A stretch of DNA of 64,000 bases from Alkalibacterium sp. (lineage in GTDB: Bacteria > Bacillota > Bacilli > Lactobacillales > Carnobacteriaceae_A). Positions 25,981 to 50,128 of the stretch are shown one piece after another; position 1 is the first letter of the stretch, and the number at the start of each line of letters is the position of its first letter. The notes under the pieces were generated by a model that ran no database searches, was not told the DNA's origin, and saw nothing but the letters and a program-made list of their open reading frames with translations. Made by a program: the position numbers and the translations under genes. The stretch lies in the NCBI GenBank assembly GCA_007692455.1, contig RECC01000060.1, positions 37,416 to 101,415 of the forward strand. The letters run 5' to 3'.

Positions 25981-26059
25981 TTATACAGCAGTCAAATCCT
26001 GGAAGTAGCGCTTTGACATGTGTTTTTTTCACAAAAAAACTATAAATCGAAATGAAAAA

Positions 26060-26082
26060 GAGAATGATAATCATTATCATTT
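26060..26082. promoter_or_regulatory. Fur box upstream of the first rnfCD cassette
   Basis: gagaatgataatcattatcattt: contains perfect 7-1-7 TGATAATcATTATCA (26065-26079); 18/19 match to GATAATGATAATCATTATC. Confidence 0.8.
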
Positions 26083-26268
26083 GTGATATTTCTGTACATA
26101 ATTCCGGCTAAAAGCCTTTAAAATCTTTACTTTTGTATAATATTTCGTTATTCTTATTGTAGAGATTGTAACAGCTATAATTTAAATATATTTGTGAAAT
26201 TATTATTATGTTCTTCTTGTTGTTGCATAATCAGGGTTAGCTTTCATAGAATTTGAGGAGGTAAGGGA

Positions 26269-27582
26269 ATGCGTTTCAAAACAGTACAAAAAGCTGTATT
26301 TCCTAAACATAACAAATCTCGTACGCATAACAAAGCCATCGAGAGAGTTGATGCACCATCAATAATGGTTTATCCAATGTCCATGCACTTAGGGGCGCCG
26401 GCGAAGCCAGTGGTTGCAGTAGGAGATAAGGTTAAAGTAGGTACACTAATCGGTGAAGGTCAAGGATTTATATCAGCACATATCTTGTCCTCAGTTAGTG
26501 GAGAAGTTGTTTCGATTGAAGAGAGAGATGTTTTAAGTGGCGTCTACACCTGTGTGATTGTAAAAAATGATGGAGAGTATATCGAAGAACCTCCATTTCC
26601 TGAAGCAGGTGACAATGTAGCTCCTGACATGGTTCCAGAATTGATTAAACGCGCGGGAATAACAGGTATGGGTGGAGCAACCTTCCCGACCAACGTTAAA
26701 ATGATTCCGCCGAAAGATAAGAAAATCGATACAATTATTTTAAATGGTGCAGAATGCGAACCGTATTCAACTTCTGATTTGCGCACAATGATCGAATATG
26801 CCGATGAAATTATTGAAGGTGTACGAGTTATTGATGAAGGCTTTAATGTTGATAAGATTTATATCGGTATAGAAGATAATGCTAAAGAAGCTGGAGAAGC
26901 GCTGAAAAAAGCTGCAGAAGGCTACGACAAAGTTGAGGTTAAAGTATTAGAAGCGAAATATCCTCAAGGGTCTGAAAAACAGCTGATTGAAAACTGTACT
27001 GGAAGACAAGTGCCTTCAGGTGGGCTTCCTTCAGATATTGGCTGTATTGTATCCAATGTTGGAACATTCCAGATGATTTACCGCGCTGTTCGTTTGGGCA
27101 AACCAATGGTTGAGCGTGTCACAACTATATCTGGAACGCCAATTGCTGATCCGAAGAACTTGCTTGTGAGACTGGGCACACCTATCGATGATTTAATTGA
27201 TGTATGCGGTGGTTTCCAGGAAGTTCCTCGAAAAGTGCTTCACGGTGGACCGATGATGGGTAAAACGATTAAAGACGGAGCTATTCCGATTTCAAAAGGA
27301 ACCACTCATATTACATTTATGACGGCTGAAGAAGTAGATGAAGAAGAGCGTATCGATTGTATTCGCTGTTCAGAATGTCTGAATGTTTGTCCTGTAAGTC
27401 TGCAGCCTATTTTAATCAGCAACGCTTACGAGCGAGGCGATATTGAGAAGGCTGAAGAACTAGGAGCAATGGACTGTATTGAATGTGGGAACTGTTCATT
27501 TATCTGCCCATCCAAAATTCCATTACTTGATAATATTAGAAAATCTAAAGCTGCAATCAAGCAGAATGCAAAGGCGGTGTAA
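26269..27582 (+). CDS. RnfC-like electron transport subunit, copy 1
   Basis: ITGMGGATFPTNVK, NGAECEPYSTSD, two 4Fe-4S motifs CIRCSECLNVCP and CIECGNCSFICP. Confidence 0.93.
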   Translation: MRFKTVQKAVFPKHNKSRTHNKAIERVDAPSIMVYPMSMHLGAPAKPVVAVGDKVKVGTLIGEGQGFISAHILSSVSGEVVSIEERDVLSGVYTCVIVKNDGEYIEEPPFPEAGDNVAPDMVPELIKRAGITGMGGATFPTNVKMIPPKDKKIDTIILNGAECEPYSTSDLRTMIEYADEIIEGVRVIDEGFNVDKIYIGIEDNAKEAGEALKKAAEGYDKVEVKVLEAKYPQGSEKQLIENCTGRQVPSGGLPSDIGCIVSNVGTFQMIYRAVRLGKPMVERVTTISGTPIADPKNLLVRLGTPIDDLIDVCGGFQEVPRKVLHGGPMMGKTIKDGAIPISKGTTHITFMTAEEVDEEERIDCIRCSECLNVCPVSLQPILISNAYERGDIEKAEELGAMDCIECGNCSFICPSKIPLLDNIRKSKAAIKQNAKAV

Positions 27583-27585
27583 AGT

Positions 27586-28686
27586 ATGACAACAGATAAG
27601 AAAAAAACCACCTTAGCTGATTATGATTTGGTCCTTGATAATTCACCACACGTGTTTGAGAAATGGTCTTCACAGTGGATTATGCTTCAAGTTATTATTG
27701 CCATGCTTTTCCCTTTGGCAGCCGGAACCTATTTCTTCGGTTTTCAGACACTTTATCTGACAGTCCTGGCAGTTGTGACCTGTGTCATCAGTGAATATTT
27801 GTATGAAAAAATTGTTCGTAAGAGAGTAACCATTACAGATTTATCCGCAGTCGTAACAGGTATGCTGGTGGGTCTGAGTATGCCGAACGGTGTACAATGG
27901 TTCAGCGTTGTACTGGTGAGTTTATTTGCTATCATAGTGGTTAAAATGATTCCAGGAGGCATTGGTAAAAACAGATTCAACCCAGCTGTGGGAGGACGTG
28001 TTGTTTACTTGATGGCACCATGGATAGTCAATACATTTGTTCAGGGTGAAGATTTAATCACAACAGCCAGTCATGCAGAAGCGATTACTGGTGCCACTCC
28101 TTGGGATTTAGTATCTGAAGCAACACCTCTGTACTATATCGCAAGTGGAGCTCAGGAAGTACCTGAAGGAGCACAAACACTGTTCAATATGTTCCTTGGT
28201 GATCAAGGAGCATGGGGCGGCTCACTCGGTGAAACAAGTGCACTGGCTTTACTAGTTGCAATGGCCTTCTTAATTTTCCGTCGAATTATCAATCCTAAGC
28301 AACCGGCACTGTTTATTGGTACTGTAGCTGCTATCATGCTAGTGTATTCAGGATTCGACTTTGAATTCATGATGTATCACCTGTTCAGTGGCGCACTCAT
28401 GCTGGCTGCAACCTTTATGGTGACTGATTACGCATCCGGTGGTCTGACTCCACATGGTCGAACTATATTTGCCATAGGAGCCGGTATTTTAACGGCGGTA
28501 TTCAGAATCGGATGGTTTGCCCCAGAAGGAGTCGGTATTTCGATTCTAATCATGAATGCCATTATTCCGTTTGTGGATAAGATTGCTATGCCTAAAATTT
28601 ATGGACATAAAAAACGTCCAAAAGTGCATGCTGATTACGATTTGACAGAACCTTTAGCAAAAAGAGATGTTCTTACAGAAAGCTAA
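27586..28686 (+). CDS. RnfD-like membrane subunit, copy 1
   Basis: NQR2/RnfD-type polytopic protein: KMIPGGIGKNRFNPAVGGRVVYL, FDFEFMMYHLFSGALMLAATFMVTDYASGGLTPHGRTIFAIGAG; 4 nt after rnfC. Confidence 0.92.
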   Translation: MTTDKKKTTLADYDLVLDNSPHVFEKWSSQWIMLQVIIAMLFPLAAGTYFFGFQTLYLTVLAVVTCVISEYLYEKIVRKRVTITDLSAVVTGMLVGLSMPNGVQWFSVVLVSLFAIIVVKMIPGGIGKNRFNPAVGGRVVYLMAPWIVNTFVQGEDLITTASHAEAITGATPWDLVSEATPLYYIASGAQEVPEGAQTLFNMFLGDQGAWGGSLGETSALALLVAMAFLIFRRIINPKQPALFIGTVAAIMLVYSGFDFEFMMYHLFSGALMLAATFMVTDYASGGLTPHGRTIFAIGAGILTAVFRIGWFAPEGVGISILIMNAIIPFVDKIAMPKIYGHKKRPKVHADYDLTEPLAKRDVLTES

Positions 28687-28693
28687 TTAAACG

Positions 28694-28725
28694 AAACGGC
28701 TGAAATTATTTCAGCCGTTTTTTTT
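28694..28725 (+). terminator. Intrinsic terminator after rnfD copy 1
   Basis: aaacggctgaaattatttcagccgtttttttt. Confidence 0.92.
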
Positions 28726-28883
28726 GTGTATGAAAAAGGCTAGAAACAATTGAGTGCTCTTGAGAACAAGGGTAATTTATAGTGAGTCATCTGTCCGTTT
28801 AAAACTAGTAACAGAATAGTTCTATAAAGAGTGTGAATCTTTATCTTTCTAATAGAATTAAGGTATACTTAATATAGATTCAG

Positions 28884-29333
28884 TTGAAAGGTGGGAGACA
28901 CTTGACTAATATGTTAAAAGGGATGAGTGCATTACTATTTTCAGGCGTAATCCTGTCGGCTTGTGGAACATCAAAAGAAGCTTCTCCATTTGAAGAGGTG
29001 AATACATTGGATGGGGTAAATATACACTTAGATCAGGATACTTATGCTCAAGAAGGTGATAATTTTATGCTGACTGTAAGCAATGAATCTGATGAAGAAA
29101 TCTCTTATGGAATAGCTTTCACTGTAGAAGTCGAAGATGACGGTGATTGGTATATTGTAGAGCCGGAGGAAGAGATGGCCTTTATTTTAATAGCTCATAT
29201 GCTTGGCCCGGGTGAAGAAGCAGAAGAAGAGTTGAATATGGAGTATTACGAACCATTTGATGAAGGCACCTACCGTGTTGTCAGACAAATGGAAGGTGAA
29301 GTTCTGACTGCAGAATTTACAATTGAACAATAA
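28884..29333 (+). CDS. Lipoprotein with Ig-like fold candidate domain
   Basis: Signal peptide and lipobox LLFSGVILSACGTS; short acidic beta-rich mature region. Confidence 0.7.
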   Translation: MKGGRHLTNMLKGMSALLFSGVILSACGTSKEASPFEEVNTLDGVNIHLDQDTYAQEGDNFMLTVSNESDEEISYGIAFTVEVEDDGDWYIVEPEEEMAFILIAHMLGPGEEAEEELNMEYYEPFDEGTYRVVRQMEGEVLTAEFTIEQ

Positions 29334-29335
29334 TT

Positions 29336-29370
29336 AAAGACACACACTTCATAAGGGAGTGTGTGTCTTT
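29336..29370. terminator. Bidirectional terminator between convergent genes
   Basis: aaagacacacact ... agtgtgtgtcttt. Confidence 0.8.
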
Positions 29371-29375
29371 CGAGG

Positions 29376-30089
29376 TCAATTATCCAAGGTAGTTTTAATC
29401 GTGTTTATTTTCATTATATCGTCATGTTCCCCGACATCTGCAATAAAATGCATCATATTAAACTGATTGGGAAGGTGAAGGGTATATAAGTCTTCACAGA
29501 TAGAGGTGCCGTCTTCCAAGTAAGTGATGGCGTGATCAGTGGAAATAACTTGTATCTTGTTATCTGCAAAAACTTTTTCCAAATAGGTTAAAGTCTTATT
29601 TCTATTCTTATATTGAACTTCCAGTTGCTTTGTTCGATCAATTTTGAACATGCCTTTTACTACACGCAAAACAATCAGCATGATTAATGTACTGGTTAAC
29701 GCCATGGTATAATTGCCCATTCCAACAGCGATGCCTAGACTGGCTACAGCCCATATAGATGCAGCCGTTGTTAAACCTGTAACGGTACGTCTACTGACAA
29801 TGATGGTTCCGGCACCTAAAAATCCGATTCCGTTAACGACCTGAGCGGTTAGACGAGTAATATCTGAATTAAGAACATTTGAATATTCCGGGTTTTCCAT
29901 TGCAAAATTGAGCACCCATCTGCTGGCTTCTAATTGAGTCATGGTTATGATAGCGGCACCTAAACTGACGAGAGTATGTGTGCGTATACCCGCGTCACGC
30001 CCTTTTAGTTCACGTTCATATCCAATAACCCCACCAACTATAGCTGCCAGAAAAAGTCTTAAAAATAATTCAAGCTGTGAATAATCCAT
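29376..30089 (-). CDS. MgtC/SapB family membrane protein
   Basis: LFLRLFLAAIVGGVIGYERELKGRDAGIRTHTLVSLGAAIIT; start placed at MDYSQLELF with a strong SD. Confidence 0.93.
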   Translation of the reverse strand: MDYSQLELFLRLFLAAIVGGVIGYERELKGRDAGIRTHTLVSLGAAIITMTQLEASRWVLNFAMENPEYSNVLNSDITRLTAQVVNGIGFLGAGTIIVSRRTVTGLTTAASIWAVASLGIAVGMGNYTMALTSTLIMLIVLRVVKGMFKIDRTKQLEVQYKNRNKTLTYLEKVFADNKIQVISTDHAITYLEDGTSICEDLYTLHLPNQFNMMHFIADVGEHDDIMKINTIKTTLDN

Positions 30090-30298
30090 GAGTGTCCCCC
30101 TGATAGTCTTTGATACTATTATCATTAACTTTCTATGTAAAAACAAGAATGAATTTTATTTCGTCTGTATTTACTTTAATCTTTTGCGTTCATATTGTAT
30201 ACTGTATTTATTATAAATAAGAGCATTCATCTTCAATTTACATAATTATAGCACTATTTGTGAAAAGATGAATGAAAAAAATTGGAAATTGAGAGAGG

Positions 30299-31633
30299 AT
30301 GAGAGTGATGCATTTTTCATTCATGGGTAAGCAAGGTGGTTCCCACCCAGAAGAAAATAAATCACGAACGAGTAAACTGCCTATCGTTGATGCGTCAGTA
30401 CCTAAAATAATGGTATTTCCTGTAGCGATGCACATAGGTGCGCCTGCAAAACCCGTAGTTGAAATAGGAGACCAGGTGAAAGCAGGCCAAATTATTGCAG
30501 AAGAAGGCGGCTTCGTCTCTGCACATGTGTACTCTTCTGTTTCCGGAGAAGTAATTGGCCTTGAAAAGCGTCCGACAGTAGGAGGAGAAGCAGATAGTAT
30601 CATTATAAAAAATGATTATCAGTACACAAAAGCTGATCCTATCGTTGAACCAGGTCACTCTCATGAAATGTCGAAAGATGACATTTTGAGTACAGTGAGA
30701 AAAGCCGGAATTGTAGGTATGGGAGGAGCAACTTTCCCAACTGCCGTTAAGTTGAGTCCGCCACCAGGCATGACTATCGATACATTGATTATTAATGGAG
30801 CTGAATGTGAGCCGTATTCAACGTCCGATCATCGTGTAATGGTCGAGCACGCTGATGAAATCATAGATGGAATCAATCTTTCCAGAAAGCTTTTTCCTCA
30901 GTTGAAAAAAATCTACATCGGTATTGAAGACAACAAACCTGATGCGATTAAAAAGATGAAGGAGGCTGCTGCAGAATTCGATGATATTAGTGTACGTCCT
31001 CTAAAATCTATGTACCCTCAAGGTTCCGAAAAGAATTTGATTCAGAATCTTGCAGGACGAGAAGTTCCACCCGGTGGACTTCCTGCAGAAGTTCGCTGTG
31101 TTGTAGCTAATACATCGACAATTCGATCCGTTTACCGTGCATGTGAGTACGGTGAACCTTTAATCGAAAGAATTGTTTCCGTGTCAGGAACACCAGTCAA
31201 AGAGCCGAAAAATCTTCGCGTAAAAATAGGAACACCAATGGATTCCTTAATCGATGACTGTGGCGGTTTTGCAGAAGTACCAGGAAAAGTATTTGGTGGT
31301 GGTCCGATGATGGGTAAAACCGTCTCTGATCTTGGAGTGCCAATTATTAAAGGAACTACTGCAGTTACTGTTTTAACACCAGAAGAGGCACATATCGGCG
31401 AAGAACAAGATTGTATCATGTGTGCAGAATGTATACATGTTTGCCCAGTCAGCCTGCAGCCGATTCTAATCAGTGAAGCTTTTGAAAGAGGAAATATTGA
31501 AAAGGCTAAGGAGTTAGGAGCTATGGATTGTATTGAATGTGGAAACTGCTCATTCATCTGTCCATCGAAAATTCCGTTGCTTGAAAATATAAGATCTGCC
31601 AAAGCTGCCATTAAACAAAAGGAGGAGAAGTAA
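30299..31633 (+). CDS. RnfC-like electron transport subunit, copy 2
   Basis: Clear paralogue of the 26269 product: VGMGGATFPTAVK, CIMCAECIHVCP, CIECGNCSFICP. Confidence 0.93.
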   Translation: MRVMHFSFMGKQGGSHPEENKSRTSKLPIVDASVPKIMVFPVAMHIGAPAKPVVEIGDQVKAGQIIAEEGGFVSAHVYSSVSGEVIGLEKRPTVGGEADSIIIKNDYQYTKADPIVEPGHSHEMSKDDILSTVRKAGIVGMGGATFPTAVKLSPPPGMTIDTLIINGAECEPYSTSDHRVMVEHADEIIDGINLSRKLFPQLKKIYIGIEDNKPDAIKKMKEAAAEFDDISVRPLKSMYPQGSEKNLIQNLAGREVPPGGLPAEVRCVVANTSTIRSVYRACEYGEPLIERIVSVSGTPVKEPKNLRVKIGTPMDSLIDDCGGFAEVPGKVFGGGPMMGKTVSDLGVPIIKGTTAVTVLTPEEAHIGEEQDCIMCAECIHVCPVSLQPILISEAFERGNIEKAKELGAMDCIECGNCSFICPSKIPLLENIRSAKAAIKQKEEK

Positions 31634-31634
31634 T

Positions 31635-32672
31635 ATGGCACAAGCAATAGATGTGCAGGGTAAATTACGTGTGGGTCCTTCTCCACACATTCGAAGCAAG
31701 CGAACATCAGCCTGGGTAATGGATCAGGTAATTATCGCAATGATCCCGCCAGTTATAGCAGCGACCTACTTCTTTGGCTGGTGGGTTTTGGGTATGATTA
31801 TTATATCAACGACTACTGCTGTGGCTTCAGAATATCTTTATCAGAAATTAACTTATAAACCCACTACTATTCATGATCACAGTGCAGCCCTAACAGGCAT
31901 GCTGATAGGGTTAAGTTTACCGGTTACGGCACCTATTTGGATGATAGTGTTCGGTTCTGTATTTGCAATCGTCATTGTTAAGCAGTTGGGTGGGGGTATA
32001 GGACGTAATTACTTTAACCCCGCTGTTGCTGCACGAGTGGTGACAAAAGCATTCTTTACTCCGTGGTTAGCAAACTGGGTTCTACCTGGCGGCTTATTCG
32101 GCAGCGGGTATAGAGGGGTCGATGCAGTAGCGACAGCCACTCCTTTAGAATTTATTGGCGATGGAATGCGTGTAGTCCCAGAAGGAGCCGTTCCCGACTT
32201 CTTCGAGCTCTTTATGGGATTTAATCTAGGTGGTAACATAGGAGAAACATCAAAATTAGCTATTTTGATTGGGATGCTCTACCTGATATTTAGAAGAGTC
32301 ATCAATCCAAAAATACCAATTCTTTTCATAGTGACTACTTTTGTCACTATGGGGTTATGGTCAAGCTTTAATTTTGAATTCATGATGACACATGCGCTGA
32401 CAGGAACGTTGTTCTTTGGAGCAACCTACATGGCGACAGATTACAGTTCTGGGTCATTGACACCTGAAGGCAAAACGGTTTTCGCTATTGGCTGTGGTCT
32501 GCTAACAGCATTTTTCAGGATAACACTCGATCATCCTGGTGGAGTAGGTTATTCGATTCTTATTATGAATGCCTTGGCTCCGTTTATTGATAGCAAACTG
32601 ATGCCGAGAATTTATGGACATAAATCTAGACCACAAACAAAATTTAACCGCCAAAGTACAAATCACATTTAA
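31635..32672 (+). CDS. RnfD-like membrane subunit, copy 2
   Basis: Paralogue of the 27586 product: QLGGGIGRNYFNPAVAARVVT, FNFEFMMTHALTGTLFFGATYMATDYSSGSLTPEGKTVFAIGCG. Confidence 0.92.
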   Translation: MAQAIDVQGKLRVGPSPHIRSKRTSAWVMDQVIIAMIPPVIAATYFFGWWVLGMIIISTTTAVASEYLYQKLTYKPTTIHDHSAALTGMLIGLSLPVTAPIWMIVFGSVFAIVIVKQLGGGIGRNYFNPAVAARVVTKAFFTPWLANWVLPGGLFGSGYRGVDAVATATPLEFIGDGMRVVPEGAVPDFFELFMGFNLGGNIGETSKLAILIGMLYLIFRRVINPKIPILFIVTTFVTMGLWSSFNFEFMMTHALTGTLFFGATYMATDYSSGSLTPEGKTVFAIGCGLLTAFFRITLDHPGGVGYSILIMNALAPFIDSKLMPRIYGHKSRPQTKFNRQSTNHI

Positions 32673-32685
32673 AAGAAATAAAATT

Positions 32686-32730
32686 AAAAAATCGCAGAAT
32701 GACAATTTTATTGTCATTCTGCGATTTTTT
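32686..32730. terminator. Bidirectional terminator
   Basis: aaaaaatcgcagaatgacaa-ttttat-tgtcattctgcgatttttt perfect stem. Confidence 0.93.
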
Positions 32731-33293
32731 TAGATAAAACTGTAAATGATTCCACCTGCTACACCGGTTATCAGCATAACTTGAATGGGACTGGCTTTAT
32801 ATTTTCTCATCAGGAAAATAGCAACTGAAAAGAATACGATTGAAACCAAATTGATGTTAGCTATATCAACCGGCCAGTCACTGTGTCCAAACATGGCAGT
32901 CAGGAAAATGGTTAATCCAGCTGAAGCAATTAACGCGACTACCGCGGGTCTGAGCCCTTGGACTACCCCCTGTACAATAGTCAGATTTTGATACTTGAAG
33001 TAGAAGTAAGCCAAAATCTGCACAATAATAACTGAGGGTAGTGTTACACCTATTGTTGCAATAATGCCTCCTGCAATCCCTGCAATCTGGTTACCTGAAA
33101 AAGTAGCTGCATTGATAGCGATTGGGCCAGGTGTCATTTCCGATAATGTTAAAATATCAATAAACTGCTGGTTGGTAATCCAACCTTGTGCGTGAATTAG
33201 CTCCTGCTCAATAAGAGGCAAGGCAGCATAACCGCCACCAAAACTGAAGAGACCAATTTGGAAAAAGCTTAAAAAGAGTTCCAAGTAAATCAT
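32730..33293 (-). CDS. Chromate transporter (ChrA half)
   Basis: FQIGLFSFGGGYAALPLIEQEL, SEMTPGPIAINAATFSG. Confidence 0.92.
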   Translation of the reverse strand: MIYLELFLSFFQIGLFSFGGGYAALPLIEQELIHAQGWITNQQFIDILTLSEMTPGPIAINAATFSGNQIAGIAGGIIATIGVTLPSVIIVQILAYFYFKYQNLTIVQGVVQGLRPAVVALIASAGLTIFLTAMFGHSDWPVDIANINLVSIVFFSVAIFLMRKYKASPIQVMLITGVAGGIIYSFI

Positions 33294-33868
33294 TTGGCAT
33301 CCCCCTTATCTTTTTTTCCCACTATCTCTATCAAGGTAGTCAAAGCGCCAATTAAAGCGGACACGAGCAGCAGCCATAAAATATTGACTTGGAATACAAT
33401 ACCGGCAACCAAAGCAGCCACCATAACTATCATCGGCACTACCTTTTTTTGCTGGACAATTCTTTTGCCCATGTTATAAACCACATTGACAATAATAGCC
33501 GCCACACCAGCCTGCATACCTAAAAGAACATTATTGACAATTGCGTTATCACGAACAGCCATATAAATATAAGCTAAAACTGTCATAATTACCAGAGGTG
33601 GAAGGATGGTTCCCAATACAGTTACCAAAGCCCCTGGAACTCCAGCCATGCGGTAACCAACCAATAAGGACGTATTAACGGCAATAGGTCCAGGAGCAGA
33701 CTGGCCTACTGCAATCAAGTTCAACATTTCGTCCTCGTTAATCCAGCCGAGTTCTTTAACGAATTTCTTTTCCATTAAAGGAACAATGACGTACCCTCCT
33801 CCAAAGGTGAACATACTTAAGAAAAATGTCGAACGAAATAGTGTTGTATATAATTCTTTCTTCTCCAT
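33290..33868 (-). CDS. Chromate transporter (ChrA half)
   Basis: STFFLSMFTFGGGYVIVPLMEKKF, GQSAPGPIAVNTSLLVGYR; start set at MEKKELYTTLF (aagaagg SD). Confidence 0.92.
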   Translation of the reverse strand: MEKKELYTTLFRSTFFLSMFTFGGGYVIVPLMEKKFVKELGWINEDEMLNLIAVGQSAPGPIAVNTSLLVGYRMAGVPGALVTVLGTILPPLVIMTVLAYIYMAVRDNAIVNNVLLGMQAGVAAIIVNVVYNMGKRIVQQKKVVPMIVMVAALVAGIVFQVNILWLLLVSALIGALTTLIEIVGKKDKGDAK

Positions 33869-34030
33869 TAAAATCCTTCTTTCCAACTCATTTCTTCTAT
33901 TATATTGGAATTGGAAAGTGTTTAAAAGGAAAAGTAACAAAAGTGCTTTATGTGAGATTTTGTTCAAGAATAGGTATAATGAATGAAAGACGTCAAAGAG
34001 ATGGACATGACGGTTTTTGGAGGTTTTTAA

Positions 34031-50113: not shown

Positions 50114-50128
50114 TGATAATGATTATCA
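50114..50128. promoter_or_regulatory. Fur box
   Basis: Perfect TGATAATgATTATCA. Confidence 0.75.

Follow-up and report, generated by a model that had tools for sequence, protein, structure and literature searches.

Alkalibacterium is a salt- and alkali-loving lactic bacterium. In a 64,000-nucleotide stretch of a metagenome-assembled genome of this genus (2.05 Mb, 89.5% complete; assembly GCA_007692455.1, contig RECC01000060.1, positions 37,416 to 101,415, hereafter the window), we studied two rnfC-rnfD pairs, which encode two subunits of the Rnf electron-transfer complex. An initial annotation, made by reading the sequence alone, had placed the pairs at 26269-28686 and 30299-32672 and given each its own terminator. 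The coordinates proved correct, all four genes are intact and full-length, and a terminator stem was found behind each pair.

26269..27582, + strand: rnfC1, 437 aa; TIGR01945 rnfC, E 3e-150
27586..28686, + strand: rnfD1, 366 aa; PF03116, 278 bits; TIGR01946 rnfD above cut-off
28693..28721, + strand: terminator after rnfD1; 13-pair stem, loop of 3, T run
30299..31633, + strand: rnfC2, 444 aa; TIGR01945 rnfC, E 1e-153
31635..32672, + strand: rnfD2, 345 aa; PF03116, 307 bits; TIGR01946 rnfD above cut-off
32687..32730, no strand assigned: bidirectional terminator between rnfD2 and a chromate-transporter pair; 20-pair stem

The observation of two intact stand-alone rnfC-rnfD pairs is held with very high confidence. 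As had been claimed, no other Rnf subunit is encoded near them, and the profile search was extended to the whole genome. The RnfD profile (PF03116) matched rnfD1 and rnfD2 only, the RnfA/E profile (PF02508) had zero matches in the source genome, and the RnfB profile (PF04060), which was run on this 89.5% complete genome only, gave nothing above the cut-off (best E 0.3). As for RnfG, no FMN_bind gene lies near either pair; the two FMN_bind proteins of the genome are both encoded on another contig in a non-rnf setting, and its one ApbE lipoprotein gene is on a separate contig from rnfCD. With no RnfA/E and no RnfB above the cut-off, a complete Rnf elsewhere in the genome, of which the pairs would be simple paralogues, was rejected. 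An assembly gap does not account for the lack of RnfA/E, because eight sister genomes (95-99% complete) that encode RnfD also lack RnfA/E.

The ratio of nonsynonymous to synonymous differences (pN/pS) was 0.10-0.18 for rnfC1, rnfD1, rnfC2 and rnfD2 in an orthologue comparison in which silent sites are near saturation, and all four genes are therefore under strong purifying selection. Both RnfC1 and RnfC2 keep CxxCxxCxxxCP twice, corresponding to both [4Fe-4S] motifs, as well as the flavin/NADH-site motifs GMGGATFP and NGAECEPY; the two [4Fe-4S] motifs persist across the whole stand-alone clade. For RnfD (Acetobacterium woodii numbering, from the alignment and PMC11889175), every stand-alone member in the alignment retains the riboflavin ligands N123 and D249 and the flavinylated T156. 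T156 aligns with the Thr of SEATPL in RnfD1, invariant in the stand-alone set, and with DAVATATPL in RnfD2. The TGAT motif of RnfD1 (AITGATPW) was rejected as the flavinylation site, being unconserved. Purifying selection and intact cofactor residues show that the pairs are not pseudogenised, and rnfCD is very likely a conserved functional two-subunit module.

The spacer between the pairs was borne out as annotated, with a lipoprotein gene and a convergent mgtC gene, and a further gene pair lies beyond rnfD2.

28902..29333, + strand: Big_14-domain lipoprotein gene; PF20251, E 1e-27; neighbour cluster c13
29376..30092, - strand: mgtC-family gene; PF02308, E 2e-37; divergent from rnfC2
32730..33874, - strand: two short CHR-domain (chromate-transporter family) genes; PF02417; convergent with rnfD2

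The Big_14 lipoprotein gene is syntenic within Alkalibacterium, a terminator stands between it and rnfD1, and its product is probably not a redox part. In a neighbourhood comparison, the mgtC-family gene adjoined rnfC2 in Alkalibacterium, Marinilactibacillus and the genome G015. Several genera, from two families, have the CHR-domain gene pair convergent to their stand-alone rnfCD (L057, L059, L061, L062, L064-L067, L069, L070, L073); a functional link is at most putative.

Distribution and history of stand-alone rnfCD

RnfD was found in 21 of 81 Lactobacillales genomes, 20 of them without RnfA/E, the exception being G064. Of 250 sampled Bacillota genomes, 138 encode RnfD and 136 of these also encode RnfA/E, leaving the source genome and one other with a weak RnfD match. 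RnfA/E is missing from 20/21 RnfD-encoding genomes in Lactobacillales versus 1/137 in the rest of the Bacillota sample (Fisher 4e-23, an indicative figure because the genomes are related), an extreme contrast even when relatedness is taken into account. Weak PF02508 matches below the family cut-off occurred in three further Lactobacillales genomes, G007 and G010 among them; the G010 match falls in an LrgB/CidB-like protein and was rejected as chance, and the G007 match was assumed to be of the same kind.

Named carriers of stand-alone rnfCD are Alkalibacterium, Marinilactibacillus, Tetragenococcus halophilus and Enterococcus and, in the Clostridia, Proteiniclasticum, which also has a complete Rnf. 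Nine of the 12 Alkalibacterium genomes compared encode RnfCD and three do not. The proposal of a distinct redox system rather than a decayed Rnf is supported by this conservation of a C+D-only module across Lactobacillales. In Clostridia, a full Rnf can be accompanied in the same genome by B-C-D or C-D-B cassettes and by solitary RnfD genes (L124 3813-6980, L128 4803-8070, L125, L126, L131), a wider variety of partial Rnf sets than has been described.

In an RnfD tree from a quick search, without bootstrap and with a root for drawing only, the stand-alone RnfDs formed a single clade (SH-aLRT 98). Its D1 group holds Alkalibacterium D1 and one copy each from G016 and G018, its D2 group holds Alkalibacterium D2, Marinilactibacillus, Tetragenococcus, Proteiniclasticum and others, and the Enterococcus RnfD is placed outside both. 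The D1/D2 split includes other genera, and the duplication therefore predates the genus Alkalibacterium. On the evidence of the tree and the upstream regions, C1D1 and C2D2 arose by an ancient duplication, have different promoters and are not a recent copy, which corrects an earlier note on this DNA.

A separate Enterococcaceae lineage (G020, G028, G064) carries a third gene after rnfD.

L055 8319-8900, L056 9025-9591, L057 8524-9099: third gene after rnfD in Enterococcaceae; RnfA relative unrecognised by Pfam

Pairwise blastp related this gene to RnfA (E 3e-8 and 4e-9), and a profile built from it retrieved the canonical RnfA of G064 (E 1.4e-5). It has lost the Cys of the RnfA TTNCAVLG stretch, which is a cluster cysteine; this fits a loss of the pumping arm, of which the gene looks like an intermediate.

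Beside its complete Rnf, Proteiniclasticum has a second rnf-like operon, C-D-G-E-A without RnfB (L137 6246-11271, L138 2630-7700), in which RnfD has a C-terminal FMN_bind-like part (VSGAT), RnfG is double-FMN, and RnfA/E are without the [2Fe-2S] cysteines, making it a cluster-less Rnf relative.

RnfC and RnfD could instead belong to a larger, split complex with further subunits that have diverged beyond recognition, as Pfam did miss the RnfA relative of Enterococcaceae and Proteiniclasticum does have RnfA/E without cluster cysteines. However, the divergent RnfA profile built from the Enterococcaceae gene has no match in Alkalibacterium, and the neighbourhood comparison showed no unknown membrane gene conserved alongside the cassettes in different genera, which leaves this explanation unlikely. 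Four of six subunits are missing and the Enterococcaceae RnfA relative is without a cluster cysteine, as would also be seen if a full Rnf operon had decayed and what is left of it had been kept by chance. Such a remnant is hard to reconcile with pN/pS of ~0.1, conserved cofactor residues, conserved promoters and the maintenance of both paralogues in nine genomes and two further genera, and we regard it as highly improbable.

Upstream regions and the link to iron

The upstream regions of the two pairs differ in their predicted elements.

26065..26079, no strand assigned: Fur-type box TGATAATCATTATCA, exact 7-1-7 match, 204 bp before rnfC1
26126..26154, + strand: likely rnfC1 promoter TTTACT-17-TATTCT, predicted; -35/-10 spacing kept in nine orthologous upstream regions
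30196..30203, + strand: likely extended -10 TGTATACT of rnfC2; invariant in nine orthologous upstream regions

In 9/9 RnfCD-encoding Alkalibacterium genomes, the rnfC1 upstream region, otherwise weakly conserved, has an inverted repeat at -175 to -226 that matches the Fur-type box. The exact motif has two copies in the source genome versus ~0.04 expected from base composition, with none for a reversed-pattern control, and copies with one mismatch number seven versus ~1.3 expected. Four of these seven precede iron-uptake genes at three loci: one is 44 bp before an FecCD operon, one is 22 bp before a pyridine nucleotide oxidoreductase and FecCD operon, and two are in an operon with the layout of a ferric-type binding-protein ABC transporter. 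Of the remaining three, two fall within genes and the third has no obvious target. As a candidate site, the Fur-type box at rnfC1 is a new observation here. Control of rnfC1D1 by a Fur-family regulator is likely, and the conservation of the predicted box suggests that pair 1 belongs to the iron-starvation response; that iron acquisition is its main role is a close call, which we put slightly on the doubtful side.

The other exact box lies at 50114-50128 of the window, 258 bp upstream of a sulfur operon (DsrE-family / rhodanese-metallo-beta-lactamase / TauE-like).

No Fur-type box was found upstream of rnfC2, though its own promoter is conserved, and none at the FMN_bind and apbE genes was convincing. 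There were no exact matches to Rex, CcpA, FNR or Per boxes at rnfC1 or rnfC2 in the window and no riboswitches upstream of either gene. The stretches TTTCACAA and TGTGAAATTATTAT upstream of rnfC1 (window 25990-26190) and TTGTGAAA upstream of rnfC2 (window 30200-30275) are conserved in nearly all nine genomes.

Electron route and acceptor

In A. woodii Rnf, electrons follow a U-shaped route from ferredoxin through RnfB, RnfA/E, RnfG, RnfD and RnfC to NAD+, with RnfC and RnfD forming the leg that joins NAD(H) to the outer side and a continuous cofactor chain NADH-FMN-2FeS-riboflavin-FMN (FMN, flavin mononucleotide; PMC11889175). RnfC and RnfD alone are exactly one leg of Rnf, because both hold this NAD(H)-to-outside leg. 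In simulations, the Na+ path lies in RnfA/E and not in RnfD (PMC11889175).

The path proposed in the annotation, from NADH through RnfC and RnfD to the outside, agrees with the cofactor order of the solved Rnf (PMC11889175), all checked cofactor residues being kept. Cytosolic NADH would reduce FMN on RnfC, and electrons would pass over the two [4Fe-4S] clusters to riboflavin in RnfD, then cross the membrane to the covalent FMN of RnfD near the outer face, presumably attached by ApbE encoded elsewhere. Their acceptor would be extracytosolic: flavinylated lipoproteins and/or iron, the latter as ferric iron or iron-siderophores and reached directly or via free flavin. Lacking RnfA/E/B, the module would have neither a ferredoxin arm nor an ion pump. 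Pair 1, under Fur-family control, would probably act in iron acquisition, and pair 2, with its different promoter, may have a more general role in electron disposal. We consider it probable that rnfCD is a minimal Rnf-derived, one-way NADH:extracytosolic-acceptor reductase, and we regard the module as neither decayed nor ion-pumping.

Several points weigh against this reductase. In the solved Rnf, RnfC also contacts RnfB, so that C+D alone may not be stable, and no acceptor protein gene adjoins rnfCD. In Lactobacillales, FMN_bind proteins occur in 18/21 genomes with RnfD versus 39/60 without (p 0.10), and this co-occurrence was rejected as support because it is not significant. Two near-complete RnfCD-encoding Alkalibacterium genomes are without any FMN_bind protein, and three others (G001, G002, G008) have two apbE genes each with no FMN_bind and no RnfD, which leaves ApbE there without an apparent substrate. 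In Clostridioides difficile, the full rnf operon is induced in low iron (PMC6311696), and iron control of rnfC1D1 alone is therefore no proof of ferric reduction. Finally, the Fur-type box is ~47 bp upstream of the likely rnfC1 -35 and not over the promoter, so that we can only infer the sign of the regulation; complex formation, direction of flow and acceptor are likewise inferred.

Candidate acceptors would be ferric iron, free flavins and FMN lipoproteins. Alternatively, RnfCD may replace Ndh2 and demethylmenaquinone as the membrane step to flavinylated surface lipoproteins, with iron one of several final acceptors. The electron-export locus of 20 other Lactobacillales holds ndh2, pplA and apbE, usually also dmkA and dmkB, whereas in 12/12 Alkalibacterium the nusG-L1-linked locus is reduced to apbE and an Hpre_diP_synt_I gene (L072 9254-11060, L176-L186), the absence of Ndh2 and dmkA/dmkB being judged at this syntenic locus only. 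In G015, which encodes RnfCD, the locus retains pplA, apbE and the Hpre_diP_synt_I gene only. FMN_bind is found in 7/9 RnfCD-encoding and 0/3 RnfCD-lacking Alkalibacterium genomes, and the source genome encodes a 345-aa FMN lipoprotein with VSGATGSS. However, Marinilactibacillus and G027 keep Ndh2 despite RnfCD, the locus is already reduced in Alkalibacterium without RnfCD, FMN_bind does not track RnfD across the order, and two RnfCD-encoding Alkalibacterium genomes are without it. For these reasons, the lipoprotein route was kept as a rival and not as the answer, possible but tentative.

The cluster at L007 5936-15400 encodes an amine-oxidase-like flavoprotein, an FMN_bind lipoprotein, a rhodanese-like lipoprotein, a small membrane FMN_bind protein (TGST motif) and two flavodoxin-like proteins.

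RnfD is homologous to NqrB, the site of quinone binding in Nqr (PMC11889175), and RnfCD could as Nqr does be an NADH:quinone oxidoreductase feeding the membrane quinone. Against this, the cofactors kept by RnfC are lost in NqrA (PMC11889175, PMC12174285), and no quinone oxidase turned up, though no search was aimed at one. The initial annotation had listed iron, quinone and flavoproteins as acceptors; the Fur-type box at rnfC1 strengthens the iron link, and quinone is weakened because dmkA and dmkB, which serve to make demethylmenaquinone, are missing, at locus level, from the Alkalibacterium export locus. We view a quinone reductase as quite unlikely.

Comparison with known systems

Compared to canonical Rnf (rnfCDGEAB of A. 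woodii and Clostridium tetanomorphum; 9ERI, 7ZC6), RnfC and RnfD are full-length homologues, with the NADH/FMN site and two [4Fe-4S] clusters of RnfC and the flavinylated Thr and riboflavin ligands of RnfD all present. The [2Fe-2S] core of RnfA/RnfE, a detectable RnfB polyferredoxin (looked for in the source genome only) and an in-operon RnfG are missing, and the pairs would consequently have no ferredoxin arm, [2Fe-2S] centre or Na+ path. The solved structure suggests that RnfA/E do the ion pumping, RnfD being an electron carrier only (PMC11889175); whether electrons cross the membrane without pumping could be tested directly on a natural module of C+D alone.

The NQR/RNF-like systems (Meheust et al. 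2021, PMC8238504; PMC11334425) share the idea of a partial Nqr/Rnf that passes electrons from NAD(P)H outward in one direction only, with an iron link suggested for some. They consist of an NqrB/RnfD-NqrF fusion whose RnfD part is without the flavinylation Thr, beside an FMN_bind gene (PMC8238504), whereas here RnfC is the NADH subunit and RnfD keeps the Thr. RnfD1 and RnfD2 match PF03116 only, with no NqrF-like fusion (PF00175), and neither FMN_bind nor apbE clusters with the pairs. By these features, rnfCD is neither an Rnf complex nor an NQR/RNF-like fusion. The word "RnfC" is absent from the main texts of both papers, and our literature search, which did not cover subscription papers, found no description of stand-alone rnfCD.

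Listeria-type extracellular electron transfer (Ndh2, DmkA/B, FmnB/ApbE, PplA) has the same predicted outcome, NADH electrons reaching outside acceptors in a Gram-positive, and ApbE is common to both. It uses Ndh2 and demethylmenaquinone, whereas in Alkalibacterium the corresponding locus is reduced and no ndh2-pplA-apbE-dmkA/B cluster was found. If our reading is right, rnfCD would add a new transmembrane step for flavin-based electron export, tied to iron regulation. Alkalibacterium includes indigo-reducing species whose mechanism of extracellular reduction is unsettled (PMC6153312), and rnfCD is a concrete gene pair to test in this genus.

The Fur-controlled assimilatory ferric reductases (e.g., PepSY-like proteins, PMC8238504) share with rnfC1D1 a membrane electron step and a Fur-type operator, a predicted site conserved upstream of rnfC1 in relatives, but belong to an unrelated protein family. 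It is conceivable, though we would not yet favour it, that rnfC1D1 represents a so far undescribed, Fur-controlled, haem-free class of assimilatory ferric (or flavin) reductases of Gram-positives, made of RnfC and RnfD only and derived from Rnf by loss of the ferredoxin arm and ion pump, with a paralogue through which alkaliphilic lactic bacteria carry out extracellular electron transfer without quinone.

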